A stretch of DNA of 41,398 nucleotides from a virus, in the IMG/VR virus record IMGVR_UViG_3300036886_000103, positions 1-41,398 of that record, one strand, 5' to 3'. Position numbers and translations under genes: made by a program. The first letter of the stretch is position 1, and each line of letters starts with the position of its first letter. Below the pieces are notes generated by a model. That model saw only the letters and a list, made by a program, of their open reading frames with translations, had not been told where the DNA came from and searched no databases. Below are positions 3,257-40,243 of the stretch, piece by piece.

Positions 3257-3436
3257 ATGTTCCGTGGAACGTACGCAAATAAAGGTAAAGGCTGTGGCAA
3301 GGGCAGTGGCGGACACAAGGAAGGCTCAAAGAAAGATATGAAGGAAGATAAGAAGCTAATGAAAAAGCATGGCATGAAGTCCATGAAGGAATGGGAAGGA
3401 TCAAAGTTTGACAAGAAGCACGATAAAAAGAAATAG
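3257..3436 (+). CDS. Small highly basic protein, 59 aa
   Basis: Starts at the ATG 3257 and ends in TAG at 3434-3436, one of three TAG stops noted. About a third of residues are lysine, with a Gly-rich N-terminal part (NKGKGCGKGSGGHKEG) and a KKHGMKSMKEWEG segment. It resembles the next gene in composition and in a -W-(E/D)...K-rich tail, so the two may be diverged duplicates. A nucleic-acid-binding role is an obvious guess, unsupported by a recognised domain. Confidence 0.6.
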   Translation: MFRGTYANKGKGCGKGSGGHKEGSKKDMKEDKKLMKKHGMKSMKEWEGSKFDKKHDKKK

Positions 3437-3450: not shown

Positions 3451-3666
3451 ATGACACACAAATTCTTAGGTGGTTTTCCAAACGGTAAAAGGTCACCTCT
3501 TAACCATGGGCTACAAGAAGTTAAGGGTAAGGGTGGTGGGGGAAGTAAAAAACAAAAAGCACCAGGTCACAAAGCAATGTGGGATTGGATGGACAAAGCG
3601 GAAGGTAGGAAAGATAGCTCTTGGGAAAATAAAGAAAAGGAAGCTAAAAGACAAGGATATAAATAA
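3451..3666 (+). CDS. Small basic protein, 71 aa
   Basis: The ATG at 3451 is preferred over an in-frame GTG at 3436 because the GTG reading would translate the -10 box itself. The product has a Gly/Lys-rich middle (VKGKGGGGSKKQKAPGHK) and a Trp-containing basic C-terminus (MWDWMDKAEGRKDSS). Like its upstream neighbour it is strongly basic and lacks a recognised fold; the pair precedes the chaperonin genes. Possibly DNA- or virion-associated. Confidence 0.6.
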   Translation: MTHKFLGGFPNGKRSPLNHGLQEVKGKGGGGSKKQKAPGHKAMWDWMDKAEGRKDSSWENKEKEAKRQGYK

Positions 3667-3683: not shown

Positions 3684-3992
3684 ATGTCGAACCAACCTAT
3701 GGTCAAATTCAAACCAGCTCCAGGAATAATAATCGCTCAACAAATAGAGGACTCCAATAAAAATACAATAACAATAACTTCAAAGAGCGACTCACACTTA
3801 AACAAAGGTAAGGTAATTGCTATGGGTGGTGACTTAACTACTCCTATGGGGAACATCATCAAGGCCAATAAGTATTGTAAGGTTGGCGATATCATTTACT
3901 TCTTAAGTTACGAAGGAAATTACGACAATACTACGATAAACGGTAAAAAATATTTTGCAATTAAGTTTGAAGATATGAGGTTTTCAATATGA
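3684..3992 (+). CDS. groES: GroES-like co-chaperonin (Cpn10)
   Basis: A 102-aa product, the usual Cpn10 length. It follows the family pattern: N-terminal P-x-x-G-I-I (PAPGIIIAQQIE), a flexible polar stretch at residues about 22-38 where the mobile loop lies (TITITSK is the likely GroEL-binding segment), then KGKVIAMGGD, KVGDIIYFLSY and GKKYFAIKFEDM near the end. It would cap the chaperonin encoded two genes downstream during ATP-driven folding. Sequence is very divergent from bacterial GroES, as phage co-chaperonins often are. It has its own leaderless promoter and its stop overlaps the next start as ATGA. Confidence 0.8.
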   Translation: MSNQPMVKFKPAPGIIIAQQIEDSNKNTITITSKSDSHLNKGKVIAMGGDLTTPMGNIIKANKYCKVGDIIYFLSYEGNYDNTTINGKKYFAIKFEDMRFSI

Positions 3993-4144
3993 AAATAACA
4001 TTCAAAACTAAAATCGTAGCGGAAGTAAAAAACAAAAAGAAAGCTACTATTATGGGAGTATCCAAACTTTTAGCAGAAGGAAAAATGAAAATAGAAACTC
4101 CTATATTTTTTGATGAACCAACTATAATTTTAACTGAAAAATAA
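3989..4144 (+). CDS. Small protein between groES and groEL, 51 aa
   Basis: Too short for many gene callers, but it begins by ATGA overlap with groES and ends TAA one base before the groEL ATG (TAA-T-ATG), so the three genes form a tight coupled unit. The product (MKITFKTKIVAEVKNKKKAT, then IMGVSKLLAEGKMKIETPIF) is basic at the N-terminus and hydrophobic/acidic at the C-terminus. No family recognised; position suggests a chaperonin accessory, by inference only. Confidence 0.55.
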   Translation: MKITFKTKIVAEVKNKKKATIMGVSKLLAEGKMKIETPIFFDEPTIILTEK

Positions 4145-4145
4145 T

Positions 4146-5741
4146 ATGGTTAAAACAAAAGTCATCTTTGGCAAAGAAGCCAAAGCAAAAATAATGGAAG
4201 GCGTTAACATAATGGCTGATGCGGTTTCAAACACGCTGGGGCCAAGAGGGTTGAACACTGGTTACGTCAAAGCAATTCCTAGTGGAGAAGTTTATGCTAG
4301 GGAAATAAACCACGATGGGGTTAGTACGGCACGGGCGATTGACTTAAAAGATGAGGCGGCAAACTTTTCCGCACAAATACTAAAAGAGGCTGCTCAAAAA
4401 CAATGCGATGTTGTAGGAGATGGGACAACATGTGTAGTCATCTTGGCTCGTTCTATTCTTGAGGAATGTATGCAAATGGTTAGTACCGGTGTAAACCCAA
4501 TGGCGCTACGCAAGGGTTTGGAGGACGGCTCTAGTCGTCTAATTAAACGCTTGGAGAAGTTGTCAACACCACTCAAAACTTACGAGGAGATGGTGCATAT
4601 TGCAACCATTTCAGCCGAGGACGCCTACTTAGGCAAGTTAGTCGCTGATACGCTTAAGAAAGTAGGTAGTGATGGAGTGGTTGACGTAGAGGAGAGCAAA
4701 GGCGCTGAAACGACTGTTGACTACCAACAAGGTATGCAAATAGACAAAGGCTACATTCATCAACTCTTTATTACAAACCCTGAACGGATGGAGGCGGTGT
4801 TTGAGTCCCCCCAAATTCTAATAACCGATAAGTCAATTACCTCGCTTGTCCCCCTAACTAACTTACTTAACGCATTGACTAAAGACGATATTAGACGTCC
4901 AATTGTCATTATCTCGCCCGACATCTCAGGCGAGGCCCTGCCTCTTTTAATTCAAAACAAACTCAAAGGACAACTTATTAGTCTATGTATCAAAGCGCCT
5001 TCGTTTGGGTTGGATCAAAAGAATATCCTACAAGACATAGCAATATTGACTGGAGCTAAGTTTATCACTGAGGACGCTGGACATCGCTTTGAGGACGTAA
5101 CAACTGACGATCTTGGCGAGGCCGCCTATGTTACTTCAACTAAAGATGAAACTATCATATCAGGCGGGTATGGTGATAAAACTAAACTTAAAACACGGAT
5201 AGAGCAAATAAGACGAGAGCTTGAGGAGGAGGGAAGCGACTTTGACAAGGAAAGATTAAAGGCACGTTTAGGCAAACTATCAAGTGGTATTAGTGTTATT
5301 AGTGTAGGAGGGGCAACTGAGGTTGAGATGAAAGAGCGGAGAGAGAGAGTGATAGACGCTGTGTCAGCCCTGAGGAGCGCTATGAGTAAGGGAATTGTAG
5401 CGGGTGGGGAGGTAATGTTTTTGGAGATAAGAAATTCTTTAGGTAAAAGTGTTACTGATAGGATACTTTTTAATGCCTTAGCCAAGCCTTTCAAAAAACT
5501 AGTTGAGAACGCTGGATATGATGGAGGAGAACTTATAGCAAGGCGTGAGTATAGTAAACGAGCTTATCAGGAAAATACTGGTTTTGACGTTACTGACGGT
5601 AAATTCAAGGACATGATAAAGTCCGGTATTGTTGATCCAACTGAGGTACTGATAGAGGCTATTAAAAACGCTGTTAGTGTTTCCATACAATTGGTAAGTA
5701 CTGGAGTTATTATAGTTCCTGAAGTTATTGAAAAGAAATGA
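4146..5741 (+). CDS. groEL: GroEL-type chaperonin (Cpn60)
   Basis: 531 aa, full length for Cpn60 with all three domains. Equatorial/ATP motifs are present: LGPRG 31-35, HDGVS with Asp57 (E. coli Asp52), VGDGTT 90-95 with Asp92 (Asp87), Asp404 in RVIDAV (Asp398) and the GIVAGGE loop 416-422 (one Gly of GGG replaced by Glu). The apical region (about 180-370) keeps hydrophobic substrate-binding positions. The C-terminal GGM tail is absent; the protein stops at PEVIEKK. At the inter-ring contact, E. coli R452/E461/S463/V464 align with K450/D459/G461/E462, so the salt bridge may persist while the neighbours differ. It lies between groES and the packaging genes and probably folds a virion protein such as capsid or portal. 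Confidence 0.96.
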   Translation: MVKTKVIFGKEAKAKIMEGVNIMADAVSNTLGPRGLNTGYVKAIPSGEVYAREINHDGVSTARAIDLKDEAANFSAQILKEAAQKQCDVVGDGTTCVVILARSILEECMQMVSTGVNPMALRKGLEDGSSRLIKRLEKLSTPLKTYEEMVHIATISAEDAYLGKLVADTLKKVGSDGVVDVEESKGAETTVDYQQGMQIDKGYIHQLFITNPERMEAVFESPQILITDKSITSLVPLTNLLNALTKDDIRRPIVIISPDISGEALPLLIQNKLKGQLISLCIKAPSFGLDQKNILQDIAILTGAKFITEDAGHRFEDVTTDDLGEAAYVTSTKDETIISGGYGDKTKLKTRIEQIRRELEEEGSDFDKERLKARLGKLSSGISVISVGGATEVEMKERRERVIDAVSALRSAMSKGIVAGGEVMFLEIRNSLGKSVTDRILFNALAKPFKKLVENAGYDGGELIARREYSKRAYQENTGFDVTDGKFKDMIKSGIVDPTEVLIEAIKNAVSVSIQLVSTGVIIVPEVIEKK

Positions 5742-6052
5742 CACGCTGTTATGTTTGCCGAAAACACCCCGCAACTTACAATTATATTTACGGTTGGTTG
5801 CCTTGTGTTAGTTGCCAAAAGCGAGGCAAGACTTTAAGTAAAGCGGGACAACAACCTGAGATGGTGGGGGCAAGTATTAAAGAGCAAAGGAAACAATATC
5901 TAAAAGACATTTTACCAGCCCACCGCAAAGGAGTTTTGGACAAGGGATTTGTAGAGAGGTACGGAGCTAAGAAAGCCAAGGAGCAAGGGTTTAGCGATAA
6001 GGAAATTAAAAACGCCAAGCACGTTTGGAATGAAGGATATTATAAAGAATAA
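5738..6052 (+). CDS. Zinc-finger-like phage protein, 104 aa
   Basis: Starts by ATGA overlap with the groEL stop. The N-terminus has a CxxC-x15-CxxC zinc ribbon (Cys4, Cys7, Cys23, Cys26), followed by a basic helical C-terminal part (KEQRKQYLKDILPAHRKG...VLDKGFVERYG). Similar small zinc-ribbon proteins sit near phage packaging genes, but I cannot name the family. Possibly nucleic-acid binding. Confidence 0.65.
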   Translation: MTRCYVCRKHPATYNYIYGWLPCVSCQKRGKTLSKAGQQPEMVGASIKEQRKQYLKDILPAHRKGVLDKGFVERYGAKKAKEQGFSDKEIKNAKHVWNEGYYKE

Positions 6053-6952: not shown

Positions 6953-7516
6953 ATGGAAAACCAATCCCCCACCACAATCCCCCAAGCTAATTCTCCAATA
7001 GGGGATAGCATAATTAAGGCTGTTGATAGCCCCAAAACCACTTCTCTAACTGTAAAGCAAAGAAAATGGATAGATAAGTATATAGAGCTTGGAAACGCAA
7101 CGGAGGCAGCCATGCAAGTATATGATTGTAAAGATAGGGATAGTGCAAGAGCAATTGGGGCTGAAAACTTATCAAAACTTATTATAGCTGAATTGATGGA
7201 AGAGAAAGGACTCACAGATATAAAATTAATTAATAAGTTAAATGAAGGATTAGATGCAACAAGAGTAATATCAGCTGTCAAAGGAACAAGTGCCAATGGT
7301 GGAACAACTGATTTTATTGATGTCCCTGATTTCATGTCAAGACATAAGTATTTAGAAACGGCATTTAAACTTAAAAAGCGGTTGGAGAATAAAGATAACG
7401 GACAAACACTGGTTGACGCCAAAGTTATAATATTTAACATAAATGGAAACAATAAACCTAACGGATCTATTTCATCCCCAATCGAAACAATTGAAAGCAT
7501 TAGAGATGCTGTTTGA
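6953..7516 (+). CDS. terS: Terminase small subunit
   Basis: A 187-aa product directly upstream of the large terminase. Residues about 32-90 show the helix-turn-helix signature of small terminases: LTVKQRKWIDKYIELGNATE, AAMQVYD, then RAIGAENLSKLIIAELM. The middle (DFIDVPDFMSRHKYLETAFK) is the oligomerisation-type region. It recognises the packaging site and regulates the large subunit. The C-terminal 24 residues are encoded in DNA that also encodes the start of the large subunit in another frame (74-bp overlap), an unusually long overlap. Confidence 0.8.
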   Translation: MENQSPTTIPQANSPIGDSIIKAVDSPKTTSLTVKQRKWIDKYIELGNATEAAMQVYDCKDRDSARAIGAENLSKLIIAELMEEKGLTDIKLINKLNEGLDATRVISAVKGTSANGGTTDFIDVPDFMSRHKYLETAFKLKKRLENKDNGQTLVDAKVIIFNINGNNKPNGSISSPIETIESIRDAV

Positions 7517-8885
7517 TTTACGTTGTAAATACTTTCTTTATGGTGGGGCAATGGCCGGTGGAAAGTCTTACTTACTTAGGTGGGCGGCACTCTCTTATTT
7601 AATATACATCTATGGAAAGACTGGAATAAAAAATGTACCTGTTGGACTTTTTAGTGAGGATTATCCAACACTTAAAGATAGACAAATAAATAGGATAGAG
7701 AGAGAATTTCCACGTTGGTTGGGCGAACTTAAGGATAGTAAGATTGATGGACTAGCTTTTCACATGAGGCCTCAATACGGCGGTGGGCGTATTCTACTTC
7801 GTAATTTAGACGATCCATCAAAGTATATGAGTACTGAGTTTGCGGGGGAGTTTGTTGATGAACTGACGAGAGATGACGAGCAAACATTTCAAGACTTAAG
7901 AAACCGTCTACGATATCCTGGTGTAGAGGAAGTTAAATTCATGGGAGCAAGTAACCCTGGAGGAATAGGACACGGATACGTTAAGAAGTTCTTTATAAAC
8001 AAAACTACCAACGATCCTGAACAAGATAGATTTTTCTTTCTACAAGCCAACGTCTATGACAATAAATTCATCTCTCCAAACTACGTTAAACAACTTGAGT
8101 CCCTGCCACCTCAACAACGCAAGGCCTACCTTGAGGGATCATGGGATATCTTTGCTGGTCAATTCTTTGAGGAGTGGAAGAGCGAGTACCATGTAATAAA
8201 CCCCTTCATCCCCAACCCCGTCAAGACTGTGATAGTAGGTGGTATGGACTGGGGTAGCGCTAAGCCATTTGCTTTCCATTTGTCTACTGTTGATAAGGTC
8301 TTTCAAGGCGAGGACTCGTTCTTTAGGGTTAAGACTTTCTTTGAGATGTACGGCACACAAAAGCGTCCTGAAGAGTGGAGCGAGGATATAAGGACTAAGC
8401 TAAGAGTCTACAACTTTACCATGAATGATATCCTATGGGTACGAGCTGATCCTTCAATATTTAACAAACTAAACGACATGAGTAAAAGCATAAGGGATCA
8501 ATTTGTAGACGCCGACGAGAGGTGGCGTTTCATGAAACCCGCCAACAACGATAGGGAGCAAGGATGGCAGGTAATGAGGCAATGGTTATCTCTAGCACCT
8601 GATGGCCTACCTTACTGGCAAGTAACGTCAAATTGTAGGAACTTGATACGTACTTTGCCTGAGTTAATACATGATGAGCTACATGTTGAAGACGTTGATA
8701 GTGAGGGAGAGGATCATAATTCCGACGCAATGCGCTACCAATTCAAACACCTCAAATGGATAGACGCCAAGTTTGGGGCCGTCAAGGAGAACCAAATAGA
8801 TAAGAGGCCTGAAACGGGCTTCTTTGTAAACAAGAATGACGAGGGGGCTGAAATACTTTTAAACTTAAACAAATTCACACGTTAG
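7443..8885 (+). CDS. terL: Terminase large subunit (packaging ATPase/nuclease)
   Basis: 480 aa. N-terminal ATPase: Q-type motif HPQSKQLKAL (11-20), Walker A GGAMAGGKS (34-42), Walker B FAGEFVDEL with Glu140 as catalytic acid, and coupling motif MGASNPGG (167-174). C-terminal RNase-H-like nuclease: Asp269 in GGMDWGSAKP, Asp336 in VRADPS and Asp428 in DHNSDAMR. It translocates DNA into the prohead and cuts it. The ATG at 7443 lies inside terS; later starts would remove the Q motif, so the overlap appears genuine. Ends in TAG. Confidence 0.95.
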   Translation: METINLTDLFHPQSKQLKALEMLFDLRCKYFLYGGAMAGGKSYLLRWAALSYLIYIYGKTGIKNVPVGLFSEDYPTLKDRQINRIEREFPRWLGELKDSKIDGLAFHMRPQYGGGRILLRNLDDPSKYMSTEFAGEFVDELTRDDEQTFQDLRNRLRYPGVEEVKFMGASNPGGIGHGYVKKFFINKTTNDPEQDRFFFLQANVYDNKFISPNYVKQLESLPPQQRKAYLEGSWDIFAGQFFEEWKSEYHVINPFIPNPVKTVIVGGMDWGSAKPFAFHLSTVDKVFQGEDSFFRVKTFFEMYGTQKRPEEWSEDIRTKLRVYNFTMNDILWVRADPSIFNKLNDMSKSIRDQFVDADERWRFMKPANNDREQGWQVMRQWLSLAPDGLPYWQVTSNCRNLIRTLPELIHDELHVEDVDSEGEDHNSDAMRYQFKHLKWIDAKFGAVKENQIDKRPETGFFVNKNDEGAEILLNLNKFTR

Positions 8886-8906: not shown

Positions 8907-9353
8907 ATGCAAGTAACCATAAGACTTAAACCTGCCGAGCTTTTAGTACACACTGTGTCAGTTAGAAGAGTAAACCAAATGGATATTTACTTGTTCCGGT
9001 GTTATAAGTGTGGAACTGCGGTAGCTCAATTCAAGGGTGAGATTGTGAGGATTGAGCCAGGACTACTTCCAAGCGATGACGTACCTGTAGTCAGTCAATG
9101 TTTTCGTTGTAAGGAGTACTACAGCTTCCAAACCACGACAGTTAAAAAAGATAGGATAGAATTAAGATTAGCTAATAATATAGATAGCCATTTTACTACT
9201 TTTCGTTGTGTCCTTTGCCGAATGCAGCTATTAGAATATAACTCTAAATTTGTTAAGTCGTTACCAGAATGGAAGAGTGAGGTATTGCCTTATAAGTTTG
9301 ATTGCTCTGGGAAAGAATGCAACCAAAAATATGTTCTTAAAGACGTCATATAA
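8907..9353 (+). CDS. Double zinc-ribbon protein, 148 aa
   Basis: Contains two four-cysteine clusters: CYKC (32, 35) with CFRC (65, 68), and CVLC (101, 104) with C133/C138. Each pair of CxxC-type knuckles is separated by about 30 residues with beta-strand character, typical of tandem zinc ribbons. Lies between large terminase and portal, and is likely a packaging or head accessory protein that binds nucleic acid or protein. No named family. Confidence 0.65.
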   Translation: MQVTIRLKPAELLVHTVSVRRVNQMDIYLFRCYKCGTAVAQFKGEIVRIEPGLLPSDDVPVVSQCFRCKEYYSFQTTTVKKDRIELRLANNIDSHFTTFRCVLCRMQLLEYNSKFVKSLPEWKSEVLPYKFDCSGKECNQKYVLKDVI

Positions 9354-9406: not shown

Positions 9407-11446
9407 ATGGTAGAAAATTTAATGGTCGGGGCCTTCACTGAACGTAACCCCGAACGAATATCCTCTAAGGAAGGCGTCGCTACATTTCCTGTTGATCCGC
9501 TTGAACTTAAGATTGAGGATGATGAGTTGGTGCGCATTGTAGACCAGCATAGTGACGACTACGAGCTATTTTATGAGAACAAGTACGACCTATTCGCAAG
9601 GCGCAAGAAGAATGAAATATACTACTTTGGACGACAGGTAATGCAGAAGGAGAAGGAGCGACTACTCAAGGACTATGAGTCAAAGTATATGGATAACGTT
9701 CTATATGAGATAGGTGGTTCGCTTAAACCTCTCCTTATGACACGTTTACCTGATCTTATAGTTCTGCCAGGTAACGATAGTGACGAGGCAATGCTCACCT
9801 CTCAAGAGATAAGTAAAGCGGTAGACACGCAAATTAAAGATAGACAAAATAGACGGGTGCTAGGACTAGCGATTAAACACTTACCTGTCTACTTCACGGC
9901 AGTTATCAAGGTTAGATGGGATCCAGAGATTGATGACTACATATTTGAGAACATCCACCCCGACCTTATTGAGTGCGACTACACCTCAACGACTAAAGAC
10001 GCTGACTCCATGAGTTACGTGTCTCAAATTTGTCCATGGACTGTTGAGCAAGTTATGTTGAAGTTCCCCAAGAAGAAAGAAGAGTTTATTAGAGAGTTAC
10101 AAAAGGACGGACTTGCGGTAGACCCTGACGACCTGCCTAACTCACTACTTGCAACCACTATCAATGTGCGAGAGGTGTGGTTTGACGAGTACCAAAGTAA
10201 AAGCGACACTGAGGTTGAGAAGATATCGGGCTTACTTTGGAAGTACAAGGACTGTATCTTGGGTAAGATGAAGAACCCAAACTTTGACTATGAGGGTGAG
10301 AAGAGATACTTTAGTTATGATCCTCAGATCAAGGACAAAAGGGCATTAAACGAACAAGAGTTAAACTATGTACTTATGACCGGCCAACTGCCTCAAGGAG
10401 TCTCCGAGGAGCAGGTCTATCACAACTACTTTAGACATCCACGTAAACCTTATTACTTCATGGGCTACGACCAGTGGGGCAAACAACCGTATGATGAGAC
10501 CTCATGGATAGAGCAGAACTTAGGCAACCAAAAAGCGATAGATAAGCGAGGCAAACAACTAGAGGAGACGCTTGATAAGAGAGGACACCACGTATTTAGC
10601 AAGGAGTCAGGACTTACACCAGCTGACGTTGAGGAGCTTGACTTAAACGACCCAGATGAGGACTTAGTGGTAGATGGGGACGTAAATAGGACTCACGCTT
10701 TTATGGCACCAGAACGTCCTGCTAAGCAGGAGTTTGACGAGATGACTAACCTTAGAAATAGAATGTACGCTATCTCTCACAGTAACGCTATACGTGGACA
10801 AATACAAACAAGTGTGGCGACAACCAACCAAATAGCTAGAGAGGGCGACTTCACCTCAGCTGATGATATGGCTGAGGATACGATAAACGACGCTGCCCAA
10901 TGGATGGCTGACTGGGCTATGCAGTTCATCAAGCTCCGCTACACAGAAGACCATTTCAGGGATATTCTGGGAGTGGCCGGTGAGGCAGTCTACATCAAGC
11001 TCAACCGCAACATGGTAGGCGACGGGATGATAGTCAAGATAAAAGCCTCAGGCACTGATAAGTTAAGAGCGCAGAACAACGCACTTGAAATGGCGAAAAT
11101 GCAAATGACCGACCCTTATACGTTCTTTGTTGATATGGGATTATCTGATCCAGAGGGACGCACAGAGAAGTTGATACTAGCCAAGATGTCCCCGCAAGCT
11201 TACCTACAAAAGATAATCAAAGGAATAAACACAAGTGAGGCATTAGCTAAGGCCTTAATGGAACAAGAGCAAGTACCGCCTCCAGGCACTCCACAACAGC
11301 CAGGAGTACCACCAACTATGCCAGGAGCACAACCACCAATGGCAGGAGGACAGGCAGGGCCAGCAGCACCTCAAGCTCCAACTGTAACTAATACCGCCCA
11401 AGTTCCGACTGCCCCGCCAATAAACCCACCTCAGCCGATAATGTAA
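9407..11446 (+). CDS. Portal protein
   Basis: 679 aa, within the size range of podovirus-type portals. Between terminase and scaffold/capsid, it has the expected helical clip/stem/wing composition: an early segment with YYFGRQVM and SLKPLLMTRLPDL, a central VYFTAVIKVRWDPEIDDY / ENIHPDLIECD region, and a long helical C-terminal part (NDAAQWMADWAMQFIKLR). The last 60 residues are a disordered Pro/Gln/Ala-rich tail (PPPGTPQQPG...PINPPQPIM). It forms the dodecameric vertex through which DNA enters and leaves. An ATG 4 codons downstream (MVGAF) is an alternative start. Confidence 0.85.
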   Translation: MVENLMVGAFTERNPERISSKEGVATFPVDPLELKIEDDELVRIVDQHSDDYELFYENKYDLFARRKKNEIYYFGRQVMQKEKERLLKDYESKYMDNVLYEIGGSLKPLLMTRLPDLIVLPGNDSDEAMLTSQEISKAVDTQIKDRQNRRVLGLAIKHLPVYFTAVIKVRWDPEIDDYIFENIHPDLIECDYTSTTKDADSMSYVSQICPWTVEQVMLKFPKKKEEFIRELQKDGLAVDPDDLPNSLLATTINVREVWFDEYQSKSDTEVEKISGLLWKYKDCILGKMKNPNFDYEGEKRYFSYDPQIKDKRALNEQELNYVLMTGQLPQGVSEEQVYHNYFRHPRKPYYFMGYDQWGKQPYDETSWIEQNLGNQKAIDKRGKQLEETLDKRGHHVFSKESGLTPADVEELDLNDPDEDLVVDGDVNRTHAFMAPERPAKQEFDEMTNLRNRMYAISHSNAIRGQIQTSVATTNQIAREGDFTSADDMAEDTINDAAQWMADWAMQFIKLRYTEDHFRDILGVAGEAVYIKLNRNMVGDGMIVKIKASGTDKLRAQNNALEMAKMQMTDPYTFFVDMGLSDPEGRTEKLILAKMSPQAYLQKIIKGINTSEALAKALMEQEQVPPPGTPQQPGVPPTMPGAQPPMAGGQAGPAAPQAPTVTNTAQVPTAPPINPPQPIM

Positions 11447-12556: not shown

Positions 12557-13711
12557 ATGAAAAACAAACTTTCAGGACTAACTTTTCATGTTTTGCTTCC
12601 TCGTTTCTATGACGGTATTCAAAATACCAACAGGGTAGACGGTACTACTCAAAGACAACTTTACACAAAAGTTGTGGATCAAATTTTAAATTCTCCGACA
12701 TACTACTCAAGACTTGTCTCACAAGGAGAACCCTTTGAAGGAAAAACAGAAGATATTACTTACGATGTGTTAGCTGATACTCAAGGACAGTATTTTACAT
12801 CTCTTGAGACTCTAAATTCCTCAGCCGTCAACACGACTGCAACAGGTAGCTATGCACACACTGCATTTACTCAACCGGTAGTTTCTATAATGCTTGAGTC
12901 ATTTGCCAACGTCGGTTCACTTGGAATAATTAACATTGATACGTTCAAGTATGAAAAGGCTGCTGCTCAAGCTCTACAAAGTTTGGGTAGTGCGATTTAC
13001 GGAACGGGTGCTGCTAATCAACCTTTAGGGTTGACAGCTATAATTGATGATGGATCAAACGTAGCAACAATCGGTGGACTTTCAAGAGCGACTTATACGA
13101 CATTAGTTTCCGTGTTAACAGCTTTCTCTGGAGGAAAATTAACTCTTGGAACGATAGCGACAGAATATGATTCATGTATTGCCTCAGGTATGGAACATGA
13201 AACTCCAAACATTGGAGTAGTTTCAAAGTCAACTTGGTCATTATACGAACAATTATTGACTCCAAACGTCAGAGCGACTTATAACGAAGTAGGTTATGAC
13301 AAGGTAAGAATTAGAAGCAAATTTGGTGAAAGAAATTCAGCTGAACTTAGAAATGCTGCTGGATTTAATGCACTTTCTTACCGAGATATGCACGTCATGA
13401 GAGATGACTTTTCAACCGCTCAGATGTTCTGGATGATAAATGAATTCTATATCGGTTGGAAAGGACGAACAGAAATTCCATCAGAATATCAAGATGTTTT
13501 AGAGAAAGTAAACTTTGGTACGATGGAAGCCTATGAAGGCACAGGAGCAGAAGCACTAGATATGCCATCAGAATTTAACGGATGGTTCTACCAGAAGCCA
13601 TTAACAATTCCCGATCAGGCTGGTAGGATTGCAAGATTTTATGTGATCGGACAAACAATACCGCATTCATTCCGACGCCATGCAAAGGGCACAGGAATTA
13701 CCGGTGTCTAA
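12557..13711 (+). CDS. Major capsid protein
   Basis: 384 aa, the normal size for an HK97-fold capsid subunit, directly after the scaffold and behind the strongest promoter. An extended N-terminal arm (about 1-60) is followed by alternating beta and helix with segments typical of the P and A domains (LESFANVGSLG, KYEKAAAQALQSLGSAI, TPNIGVVSKSTWSLYEQLL, FSTAQMFWMINEFYIGWKG). I cannot assign a named subfamily. Likely a substrate of the phage chaperonin, by analogy with other phages. Confidence 0.75.
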   Translation: MKNKLSGLTFHVLLPRFYDGIQNTNRVDGTTQRQLYTKVVDQILNSPTYYSRLVSQGEPFEGKTEDITYDVLADTQGQYFTSLETLNSSAVNTTATGSYAHTAFTQPVVSIMLESFANVGSLGIINIDTFKYEKAAAQALQSLGSAIYGTGAANQPLGLTAIIDDGSNVATIGGLSRATYTTLVSVLTAFSGGKLTLGTIATEYDSCIASGMEHETPNIGVVSKSTWSLYEQLLTPNVRATYNEVGYDKVRIRSKFGERNSAELRNAAGFNALSYRDMHVMRDDFSTAQMFWMINEFYIGWKGRTEIPSEYQDVLEKVNFGTMEAYEGTGAEALDMPSEFNGWFYQKPLTIPDQAGRIARFYVIGQTIPHSFRRHAKGTGITGV

Positions 13712-15270: not shown

Positions 15271-16080
15271 ATGAAGAAACCTATTGTTGCCTTTACTTTT
15301 GCATCAGATCCAAAAAATATTGAATATCTGCGTAAAATGGTAAATTCTCTCCGCAAGTTTCATAGTGAAGAAGAACTGCCTTTAATTACTTATGGTTCAG
15401 ATGTTATAAAGACACTTCGTGATGAAAACCCCCTCAATAATAAAAGATTATCTCCTTTGATTACAAGAAACCTTATCAAGGAATACGACACAGTGCTACA
15501 CCTTGACGCAGACCAGATAATAACGGGAAGCTTGGATCGTTTAATAAAAATGAAAGATTATGACGCAGCTGGCCCTTATAACTTAAACAGGATAGATCCT
15601 AAGAGATATGGTGTGGTCAAGGTTTGGGATATAGAGCCAAAGGACTATTTCAATCTTGGGACTTTTGCGGTTAGAAGCGAAGAGTTTGCCGAGCATTGGT
15701 GGAGTCTTTGCAACTCATATCACATAAATAACTACCAGTATCACGAGCAGGATATATTTAACATAGTCGCCCATTTTGGCAACTACAAGGTAGTACGTCT
15801 TGACGAATGGGACGCAAAAGAGAACTATGGGGCCTTCTACGGGTTATCCTCAAAAGGTGAAGGGTTGAGAATGAAAGTAGTCGGGAACGAACTTATTTTA
15901 CCTAAGGCTGATGATGGCTACCCTTTACACGATATGGTAATCAAGATAATTCACTTTGCCGGAGGAGATAGTGCGGTTGATAAATTTAACTATAAAATTT
16001 TCTATAACGATGAAGTTAATAAATATTTAGATAACCTTATTGATGGAAAAAAAGAAATTAAAAATAATTTGGAACAGTAA
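15271..16080 (+). CDS. GT-A fold glycosyltransferase (GT8-like)
   Basis: 269 aa. N-terminal Rossmann-like strand (PIVAFTFASDPKN) and the metal/nucleotide-sugar motif DAD in LHLDADQIITGSL (79-81) are typical of GT-A enzymes such as glycogenin-like GT8; the acceptor half has YFNLGTFAVR, YHEQDIFNIVAHFG and a late IKIIHFAGG in which the His corresponds to the C-terminal metal ligand of these families. It would transfer a sugar from a nucleotide donor to an unknown acceptor. Being in the virion-protein block, a phage surface protein is a likely acceptor. It overlaps the second glycosyltransferase by 38 bp. Confidence 0.8.
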   Translation: MKKPIVAFTFASDPKNIEYLRKMVNSLRKFHSEEELPLITYGSDVIKTLRDENPLNNKRLSPLITRNLIKEYDTVLHLDADQIITGSLDRLIKMKDYDAAGPYNLNRIDPKRYGVVKVWDIEPKDYFNLGTFAVRSEEFAEHWWSLCNSYHINNYQYHEQDIFNIVAHFGNYKVVRLDEWDAKENYGAFYGLSSKGEGLRMKVVGNELILPKADDGYPLHDMVIKIIHFAGGDSAVDKFNYKIFYNDEVNKYLDNLIDGKKEIKNNLEQ

Positions 16081-17200
16081 CGCTCCCCATACTACAAGCG
16101 GATACGGTACGCAAATGGGACTACTCCTACCTCTTATCAAGAAGGAAGGGTATCCTGTCGCCTGTATCTGCTACTGGGGACTTGACGGGGGTAAGATTGA
16201 GATAGAGGGCATACCTTACTACTCTAAGTTAAACCACCTATTTGCCTCAGACGTCCTGAACTATCACACCCAAACCTTCAAAGCTGACGTAACCATGACG
16301 CTTCATGATATTTGGATACTTGATGAAAACCATTTGGCGACTCTTAAACATTTCATTCCTTGGGTGCCTATTGATATGGATCCCATACCTGAGAAGGTAC
16401 TCTCAAAACTTTACTATGCCTACCGAATACTCACTCATTCAAAGTTTGGGCTTAAGGCACTAAACAAGGCGGGGTTTAACGCAACCTATATTCCTTTGTC
16501 GGTAGATACGACAATTTTCAAGCCCATTGAAAGAAAAGGACTTCGTAAGGAGTTGGGTTTTCCAGAGGATGTATTCTTATTTGGGATGATAGCTGCCAAC
16601 AACGACGATCCCCCACGTAAGGCTTTTCAGGAGTGCATGGATGCTTTTGTGATGTTTAACAAAAAGCACCCGAAGAGTGGAATGTACTTTCATACAAGTA
16701 TTGCCAAGGCTGCAGGGTTTAACATACTTGAGTATTCAAAGTTCTTGGGGATAGCCGGTAAAATATGGTTCTTTGACGACTTCACGACAGCCTATAAGAC
16801 CGATAGAGCTTTTATGAACAAAATTTACAATACCTTTGACGTTCTTTTAAGTCCTTCCAAAAGCGAGGGGTTTGGAGTGCCGATAATTGAGGCTGCTGCT
16901 GCGGGAGTACCTGCAATTGTAAATAATTATTCAAGTATGCCAGAACTTGTTATCCCTCACGTAACAGGCGAAGTGTGTGACATCTTAGGCAAAGTGTACA
17001 CAAAGATAGGCTCCTACTGGATGACTCCCGACCCGAAAAGTATTTATGAGAAAATGGAAGCTTTATTTGAGGCAGACAGGGTAAAGATGGGAGAGAGAGC
17101 GAGGGAGTTTGTTGTTGAGAACTACGACACAACAAAAGTATTTGATAAGCATTGGAAACCGTACCTAGCCTTGTTAGAAAGTGAAATTTATAATAAATAG
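16043..17200 (+). CDS. GT-B fold glycosyltransferase (GT4-like)
   Basis: 385 aa from the ATG 16043 (an adjacent TTG at 16040 is less likely). The GT4-type donor site is clear: SPSKSEGFGVPIIEAAAAG around residues 269-287 with the E-x7-E motif, followed by PAIVNNYSSMPELV. The N-terminal half has NSNAPHTTSGYGTQMG, the acceptor-side loop. Together with the overlapping GT-A gene it forms a two-enzyme glycosylation cassette, transcribed with head and tail genes, suggesting successive sugar additions to a virion or host surface component. Confidence 0.85.
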   Translation: MEKKKLKIIWNSNAPHTTSGYGTQMGLLLPLIKKEGYPVACICYWGLDGGKIEIEGIPYYSKLNHLFASDVLNYHTQTFKADVTMTLHDIWILDENHLATLKHFIPWVPIDMDPIPEKVLSKLYYAYRILTHSKFGLKALNKAGFNATYIPLSVDTTIFKPIERKGLRKELGFPEDVFLFGMIAANNDDPPRKAFQECMDAFVMFNKKHPKSGMYFHTSIAKAAGFNILEYSKFLGIAGKIWFFDDFTTAYKTDRAFMNKIYNTFDVLLSPSKSEGFGVPIIEAAAAGVPAIVNNYSSMPELVIPHVTGEVCDILGKVYTKIGSYWMTPDPKSIYEKMEALFEADRVKMGERAREFVVENYDTTKVFDKHWKPYLALLESEIYNK

Positions 17201-39406: not shown

Positions 39407-40243
39407 TTAACTAAATAAATCTTTCTCCAAATATTCCCCTAAATACATTCCTTTTTTACCAAATACTTTGGCTTTTCCTTTTACAAAAACTATCATCACA
39501 CCAAGTTTTAGGAAATTAAAAAACCAATGCTTTATAGGCAATCCTAAAACTACTTTTACGGCCCAATATGAAGTCGCCCCGACCTGATCCCCGACCTGAT
39601 CCCAGACCTGACCCCAGACCTGATCCCCGACCTGACCCCCGACCTGATCCCAGACCTGACCCCAGACCTGACCCCAGACCTGACCCCTGACCTGATCCCC
39701 GACCTGACCCCAGACCTGACCCCAGACCTGACCCCCGACCTGATCCCTGACCTGACCCCAGACCTTTTTAGGTATTTTTTTCTTAATGTCTATAAGGCGA
39801 GGTAATTTAGTCGCCTGATAAGGATTGTATTTTTCAATCGGTTGTTTTTTGAATTTATTTATTTTGTCTTGAAAAATTAAGAGTAGAGGATTAACCTTTT
39901 TGGCTAAATTATGGAATTTGGGTTCAAGTAACTTATCCCATTCATTAGGAACTTTCTTTAACCATTTGGCTAACTTTACATCAGTATTAAAGTTCTTTTT
40001 AACGGACTTTTCCACTAACTTTTGAGCTTTATTTTCGTCTATCTCATCCAGTATCTCTTGAGCCACTTGGTCGTAGTGGACTTGTCTTACTTCCTTTTCC
40101 CACCATAGATACTCAAATTTTCTAAACTTATCCCCGTCTATTTTTAACTGACTTTCAGCGTCTGAATGAGAATTAGTATTACCATAGACTGCTTTCTTAT
40201 TGTTAGCGAAAAAGGCGACTCCTTCACACATAATTTTAAGCAA
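39407..40243 (-). CDS. Protein with 15 tandem [W/R/G][G/D]QV tetrapeptides
   Basis: 278 aa (ATG at 40231, MCEGVAFF, is an alternative start). Residues 1-140 are helical and charged ([31 protein letters not shown]); residues 162-221 consist of 15 exact tetrapeptide repeats in which the first position is Trp, Arg or Gly, the second Gly or Asp, and the last two always Gln-Val; residues 225-278 form a hydrophobic beta-rich end ([16 protein letters not shown]). The repeat pattern implies a regular beta-solenoid or amphipathic helix presenting variable residues on one face. I recall W-x-Q-V repeats in uncharacterised proteins (DUF6745-like), without known activity. Confidence 0.65.
39581..39760 (-). 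repeat. 15 x 12-bp tandem repeat within a gene
   Basis: Fifteen consecutive 12-mers of coding-strand form NGGG(G/A)TCAGGTC, with N being T, A or G. Only base 1 and base 5 vary, and both change the amino acid; none of the other ten bases, including all wobble positions, changes in any unit. Confidence 0.9.

Follow-up and report, generated by a model that had tools for sequence, protein, structure and literature searches.

A GroES-GroEL pair of probable Microgenomates ancestry shared by related tailed phages of ~40 kb

The window analyzed here, i.e., the whole 41,398-nucleotide stretch of DNA (positions 1 to 41,398 of IMG/VR virus record IMGVR_UViG_3300036886_000103), encodes a GroES and a GroEL protein upstream of its terminase genes. 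On balance, we favor the reading that these form a functional Group I chaperonin pair, derived from Microgenomates, that has become fixed across one family of tailed phages (~40 kb), where it would serve as a private folding cage for virion proteins.

RESULTS

Chaperonin genes and their setting

The tailed-phage setting is apparent from the TerS, TerL, MCP, tail, endolysin, and NinG genes of the window. The genes on which the argument turns are the following:

3684 to 3992, plus strand: GroES (Cpn10), 102 aa; identified by Pfam/PHROG, family alignments, and AlphaFold with Foldseek
3989 to 4144, plus strand: 51-aa open reading frame (ORF), its ATG overlapping the GroES stop; tblastn homologue in L329
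4146 to 5741, plus strand: GroEL (Cpn60), Group I, 531 aa; identified by Pfam/PHROG, residues, and trees; probably CPR-derived
5738 to 6052, plus strand: CxxC protein, 104 aa, four Cys in two CxxC motifs; overlaps the GroEL stop; alignment of 17
6953 to 7516, plus strand: terminase small subunit (TerS); PF03592 (1.7e-10), PHROG 51
7443 to 8885, plus strand: terminase large subunit (TerL); PF04466, PHROG 979; anchor of the family survey
9407 to 11446, plus strand: portal protein; identified by position and 26% identity (E 1e-54) to the annotated portal of MW202566 (L163)
12557 to 13711, plus strand: major capsid protein (MCP), a candidate client; PHROG 9953, major head protein (4e-23)

The initial annotation had placed GroES, a 51-codon ORF, and GroEL in this order upstream of the terminase genes and had described the Cpn60 as catalytically intact, and both statements were borne out. 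GroES passes the curated cutoff of Cpn10 (PF00166; E 3.4e-7) and matches PHROG 3188 (co-chaperonin GroES; 9.6e-10), while GroEL matches PF00118 (1.4e-57) and PHROG 5725 (2e-122). The latter has the GDGTT motif and the catalytic residues D57, D92, and D404, aligned with D52, D87, and D398 of E. coli, that mark a Group I Cpn60, and these aspartates are invariant in all 21 GroELs of the phage family. The AlphaFold model of GroES matches Cpn10 structures in Foldseek (best 1wnr, E 7e-5), with T4 gp31 also among the matches; its mobile-loop segment (residues 26 to 35) has low model confidence, leaving the loop unresolved. A Cpn10 gene adjacent to groEL, with a matching predicted fold and an apparently flexible loop, is what would be expected of a cognate lid, and the presence of a phage GroEL beside it sets the arrangement apart from the lid-only type of T4 gp31.

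Two short Lys/Gly-rich ORFs lie just upstream of GroES, one at 3257 to 3436, for which no family match was found, and one ending at 3666. In the structural region, a glycosyltransferase gene (16040 to 17200; PHROG 2170, E 6e-31) is 51% identical to its copy in a Microgenomatia prophage. A search of the window for an exact terminal repeat of at least 10 bases found none.

A phage family carrying the pair

Phage GroELs are uncommon, as the initial annotation had stated, with a tblastn match in 224 of 50,697 phage records. Its further suggestion that the pair is unusual for a genome of about 41 kb has to be given up, since a whole family of ~40-kb IMG/VR phages and the 38,956-bp GenBank genome MW202566 carry it as well. 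GroEL scans of IMG/VR recovered relatives of 41 to 58% identity on contigs of up to ~44 kb, many of which have the order GroES, GroEL, CxxC gene, small genes, TerS, TerL, homologue of the gene at 8907, and portal in common. In a second survey, anchored on TerL and thus independent of GroEL, loci with at least about 4 kb of upstream sequence were considered. At a TerL identity of at least about 50%, GroEL was found in 12 of 13 loci (L310 to L313, L315, L320 to L322, L326, L331, L333, and L357; negative, L330), although several of these are repeat recoveries of one virus from separate samples, leaving about 9 of 10 as distinct cases. In this survey, GroES and GroEL occur together upstream of TerL. 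At lower identity, GroEL was found in 0 of 15 loci. This split by TerL identity indicates that GroEL entered, or was retained in, one part of the TerL tree, and this phage architecture does not appear to require GroEL in general, since L330 and the 15 lower-identity relatives do without it.

Among more distant TerL relatives, we observed lone GroES-like genes, with no GroEL in the stretch covered, in L359 (6142 to 6528), L347 (1897 to 2163), L354 (5890 to 6141), L358 (5087 to 5359), L368 (9954 to 10226), and L377 (10087 to 10356), as if the lid alone were supplied.

The groEL gene is open and full-length in 16 core family members. For one GroEL pair of 86% identity (L002/L040), dN/dS is 0.054, compared to 0.21 for the corresponding GroES genes, both values being rough as dS (~2 for GroEL) is near saturation. 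GroEL thus appears to be under purifying selection, with constraint clear in this pair. These data bear on a reading in which GroES is the key product, adapting host GroEL to a large capsid protein in the manner of T4 gp31, with the phage GroEL as an accessory. The six distant relatives with a GroES-like gene and no GroEL, along with the match of the GroES model to gp31, would fit such a role; against it, the near family retains a GroEL with intact catalysis and the signature of selection, and we regard the reading as rather unlikely. In the groEL of one family member (L357, 4013 to 5597), an in-frame TAG occurs close to the start (IM*RAVAS), possibly a sequencing error, the sign of a broken gene, or a case of stop-codon readthrough.

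Small genes next to the pair

The presence of a coupled 51-codon gene between GroES and GroEL is as originally described, but its role as a conserved chaperonin linker does not hold, since relatives lack it at this place. In most of them, no gene intervenes: the GroEL start falls within the GroES stop or directly at it in L001, L002, L191, and L193, and 1 to 14 nucleotides separate the two genes in L188, L189, and L182. In L181, L312, and L333, unrelated ORFs lie between them, that of L333 encoding an HNH-like protein, as judged by eye. The 51-aa protein had no family match and no direct match in phage records or IMG/VR, and its structure model was of low confidence, too poor for use. The sole homologue found by tblastn (E 4.6e-7; 49% identity in pairwise alignment) is in the phage fragment L329, directly after the homologue of the CxxC gene, and GroEL is absent from the stretch of L329 covered. 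We therefore rejected it as a chaperonin subunit; more probably, these phages have it as a genuine small gene that rearrangement has brought to this place.

In most loci of the family, the gene that directly follows GroEL is the CxxC gene. As a true chaperonin partner, it was likewise rejected: it is also found in TerL relatives with no GroEL in the stretch covered (L330, L339, L341, and L342), and it therefore belongs to the packaging-side module.

Ancestry of the phage GroEL and the likely host

With broad CPR sampling, the phage GroELs form a clade of their own, with long branches, on the Microgenomates side of the tree (support 100/100) and sister to Daviesbacteria-like CPR GroELs (99/96). 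An AU test of the alternative placing the phages outside the Microgenomates clade gave p 0.083, i.e., the alternative was not formally rejected, and the nesting within Microgenomates is for this reason well supported rather than proven. The closest cellular GroELs are those of Ca. Daviesbacteria (45%) and Levybacteria (42%). The length of the branches implies that the gene was acquired long ago, and the phylogenetic check proposed with the initial annotation thus spoke against a recent host copy. The GroEL of one syntenic family member, L194, falls among other Microgenomates, hinting at a second acquisition (fork support of 93, although the fork is drawn open).

Two further lines of evidence link the family to this group: (i) the 487-kb contig of G577, a genome of Microgenomatia (the class to which the Daviesbacteria genome G001 also belongs), has at 463 to 479 kb (G577:C2:463540-479000; L401, L402) a phage-like segment related to the window family by TerL (44%), the glycosyltransferase (51%), and the gene at 15271 (44%); and (ii) contig 28 of G717 (L426, L427), assigned by binning to a Microgenomatia metagenome-assembled genome, looks like a complete phage (34,138 bp, with a direct terminal repeat of 127 bp) and has replication-side genes in common with the window, the matches being the genes at 39407 (68%) and 303 (62%), endolysin (43%), NinG (39%), and TerS (28%). 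The former is most likely an integrated prophage, the same contig bearing its own groEL at 93 kb and, as read by sequence alone, uvrB/uvrA at about 447 to 452 kb; no GroEL was seen in the prophage itself. The latter is weaker evidence, because binning can err. When positions 1 to 40000 of the window were compared with 373 Microgenomatia genomes, the matches were mainly to homologous genes, along with short low-complexity-like ones, and a portal search across 379 Patescibacteria genomes yielded nothing useful. Taking the GroEL ancestry together with G577 and G717, we consider Microgenomates (Patescibacteria/CPR) the likely host of the window phage family. The phage copy would be essential if such hosts lacked a GroEL, but this idea was rejected as a general rule, since 259 of 286 sampled Patescibacteria genomes, as well as the prophage-bearing G577, have their own.

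Derived residues of GroEL and GroES

Positions 234, 237, 259, 263, and 264 make up what we take to be the groove that binds both the client and the GroES loop, and in E. coli GroEL the substitution V264S abolishes binding. Position 264 is V, L, or I in all 130 cellular GroELs compared (52/52 CPR and 78/78 other bacteria), whereas among the 16 core phages seven have Q (the window, L001, L002, L005, L040, L181, and L182) and the remainder other residues. Similarly, S201, present in 127 of the 130 cellular proteins, is replaced by H in the window and seven other core members, and L234 by T in the window and L001. The pair E409/R501, presumably an allosteric salt bridge, is E/R in 128 of 130 cellular GroELs versus 3 of 21 in the phage family, and K/I in the window. 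The GGM tail, whose absence from the window GroEL had already been pointed out and is seen in the alignment, is common though not universal in cells (39/52 CPR and 71/78 other bacteria) and occurs in none of the 21 family members. Past E. coli position 524, the tail measures 3 to 11 residues in all family members but one, compared to roughly 12 to 29 in cells, and shorter tails would enlarge the cavity floor. In GroES, the loop of the window is K-N-T-I-T-I-T, whereas that of E. coli is A-G-G-I-V-L-T, so that of the three hydrophobic positions (I-V-L) the window retains two (I-T-I); loops of family relatives include S-I-V-L-S and T-F-V-V-T. Judged from these alignments, the apical client/lid site, the loss of E409-R501, and the short tail devoid of GGM are derived states of the phage family.

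The loss of the apical site and of the E409-R501 pair in most family members, together with the TAG in the groEL gene of L357, could also be explained by a captured host gene that is drifting toward loss or has taken up another, moonlighting role. We consider this very improbable, as 16 core members are full-length, the ATPase residues are invariant, and dN/dS is about 0.05.

Inter-ring residues

At the positions of E. coli R452, E461, S463, and V464, the window has K, D, G, and E, as the initial annotation had read them, but its proposal that ring pairing is thereby weakened is not supported by comparison with CPR. The 52 CPR GroELs have mostly R-D-G-x, including RDGW (14), RDGK (5), RDGV (4), and RDGE (3), compared to RESV/RESI in 60 of 78 other bacteria. 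D461 and G463 are thus the CPR norm, K452 (6/52 CPR) is a conservative, charge-keeping change, and E464 also occurs in CPR (5/52); because the CPR donor lineage is mostly R-D-G-x, inheritance or conservative substitution accounts for three of the four differences, and a polar or acidic residue at 464 is left as the single consistently phage-like change. On the other hand, close relatives vary more (QDIE, QSVD, YDFS, and YSVD), and the ring interface may still be changed, since several of them lose the basic residue at 452. These residues therefore argue neither for nor against a single ring.

In its strongest form, such a change would have abolished inter-ring contacts, giving a heptamer for which GroES would be optional, as in AR9/OBP or ATP-bound EL. 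Nearly all family members have an acidic or otherwise polar residue 464, and about half of the core has lost the basic residue 452 (to Q, Y, L, V, or N), including the closest relatives L001, L002, L005, and L188. Even so, we consider a single-ring chaperonin unlikely, given that the window itself retains K452 and D461, that D461/G463 is the donor norm, with RDGE itself found in CPR, and that an adjacent GroES has been kept. The precedent is also less direct than the initial annotation had it: with ATP, the double ring of the EL chaperonin comes apart into single rings (PMC7185714), and the AR9 chaperonin is described as single-ring (PMC9598537). Both are, moreover, unrelated to the window GroEL in the tree, where the latter groups with CPR GroELs and EL and AR9 stand on separate, very long branches, their own placement being unsure.

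DISCUSSION

A functional pair with its own lid, which we favor, would operate as follows. The two genes would be expressed just ahead of the packaging/head operon, and the GroEL ring would hydrolyze ATP and take up virion proteins in their unfolded state (the capsid protein, the portal, or tail proteins being the likeliest), to be capped by the phage's own GroES. Because neither the client/lid site of GroEL nor the loop of GroES still matches the host pair, the cage probably uses its own lid and clients, with host GroEL presumably continuing to serve the cell. On the other hand, since the GroES loop retains two of three hydrophobic positions, the phage GroES might dock on host GroEL. A more far-reaching proposal, namely, a fully orthogonal, possibly single-ring cage of Patescibacteria phages, in which the GroEL, taken from CPR and altered by rewiring of its lid/client site, a broken E409-R501 bridge, and shorter tails that enlarge the cavity, would accept its own GroES only and fold virion proteins, seems doubtful to us. 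T4 gp31, which stands in for host GroES in capsid folding, offers a functional parallel to the pair we favor, and the lone GroES genes of distant TerL relatives would fit the same theme.

Complete phage GroES/GroEL pairs are rare in isolates. If the host link is true, the GroEL tree provides a gene-transfer marker tying an uncultured family of ~40-kb phages to Microgenomates. The GroEL apical site and the GroES loop, which have diverged as a pair, offer a testable case of chaperonin-lid coevolution. Phage chaperonins as such are known from jumbo phages, from phages of Flavobacterium, Cellulophaga, and Vibrio, and from environmental phages (PMC8390657); in the literature searched, we found none reported for a Patescibacteria phage and no analysis of MW202566. 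New here are how large the family is, the origin from CPR suggested by the tree, and the altered apical site.

To conclude, the pair can be set against four kinds of known relatives. (i) MW202566, the complete circular genome of Caudoviricetes sp. isolate cthkR962, is of similar size and, like the window, has the genes for GroES (annotated "mhsp60") and GroEL ahead of those for TerL and the portal; TerL, portal, and MCP are homologous, but its proteins are more divergent, with 41% identity to the window in GroEL and 30% in TerL. (ii) The GroELs of Microgenomates (Ca. Daviesbacteria and Levybacteria) have the D461/G463 signature in common with the phage proteins, but, unlike these, they have GGM tails (39/52), V/L/I264, and E409-R501, and the host GroES loop reads GGIVL. 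(iii) EL (gp146), AR9, and OBP likewise encode a Cpn60, but they are jumbo phages; the GroELs of AR9 and EL are far more divergent (23 to 24% identity to the window), and no GroES has been identified for EL, nor does its chaperonin bind E. coli GroES (PMC7185714), whereas the window has an adjacent GroES. (iv) The Flavobacterium phages immuto and elemo and the Cellulophaga phage phi40:1 have adjacent GroES and GroEL genes, as in the window, and phi40:1 has a small gene between them too; these are, however, Bacteroidota phages of 60 to 160 kb, whose GroEL lineages are separate from that of the window in the tree.
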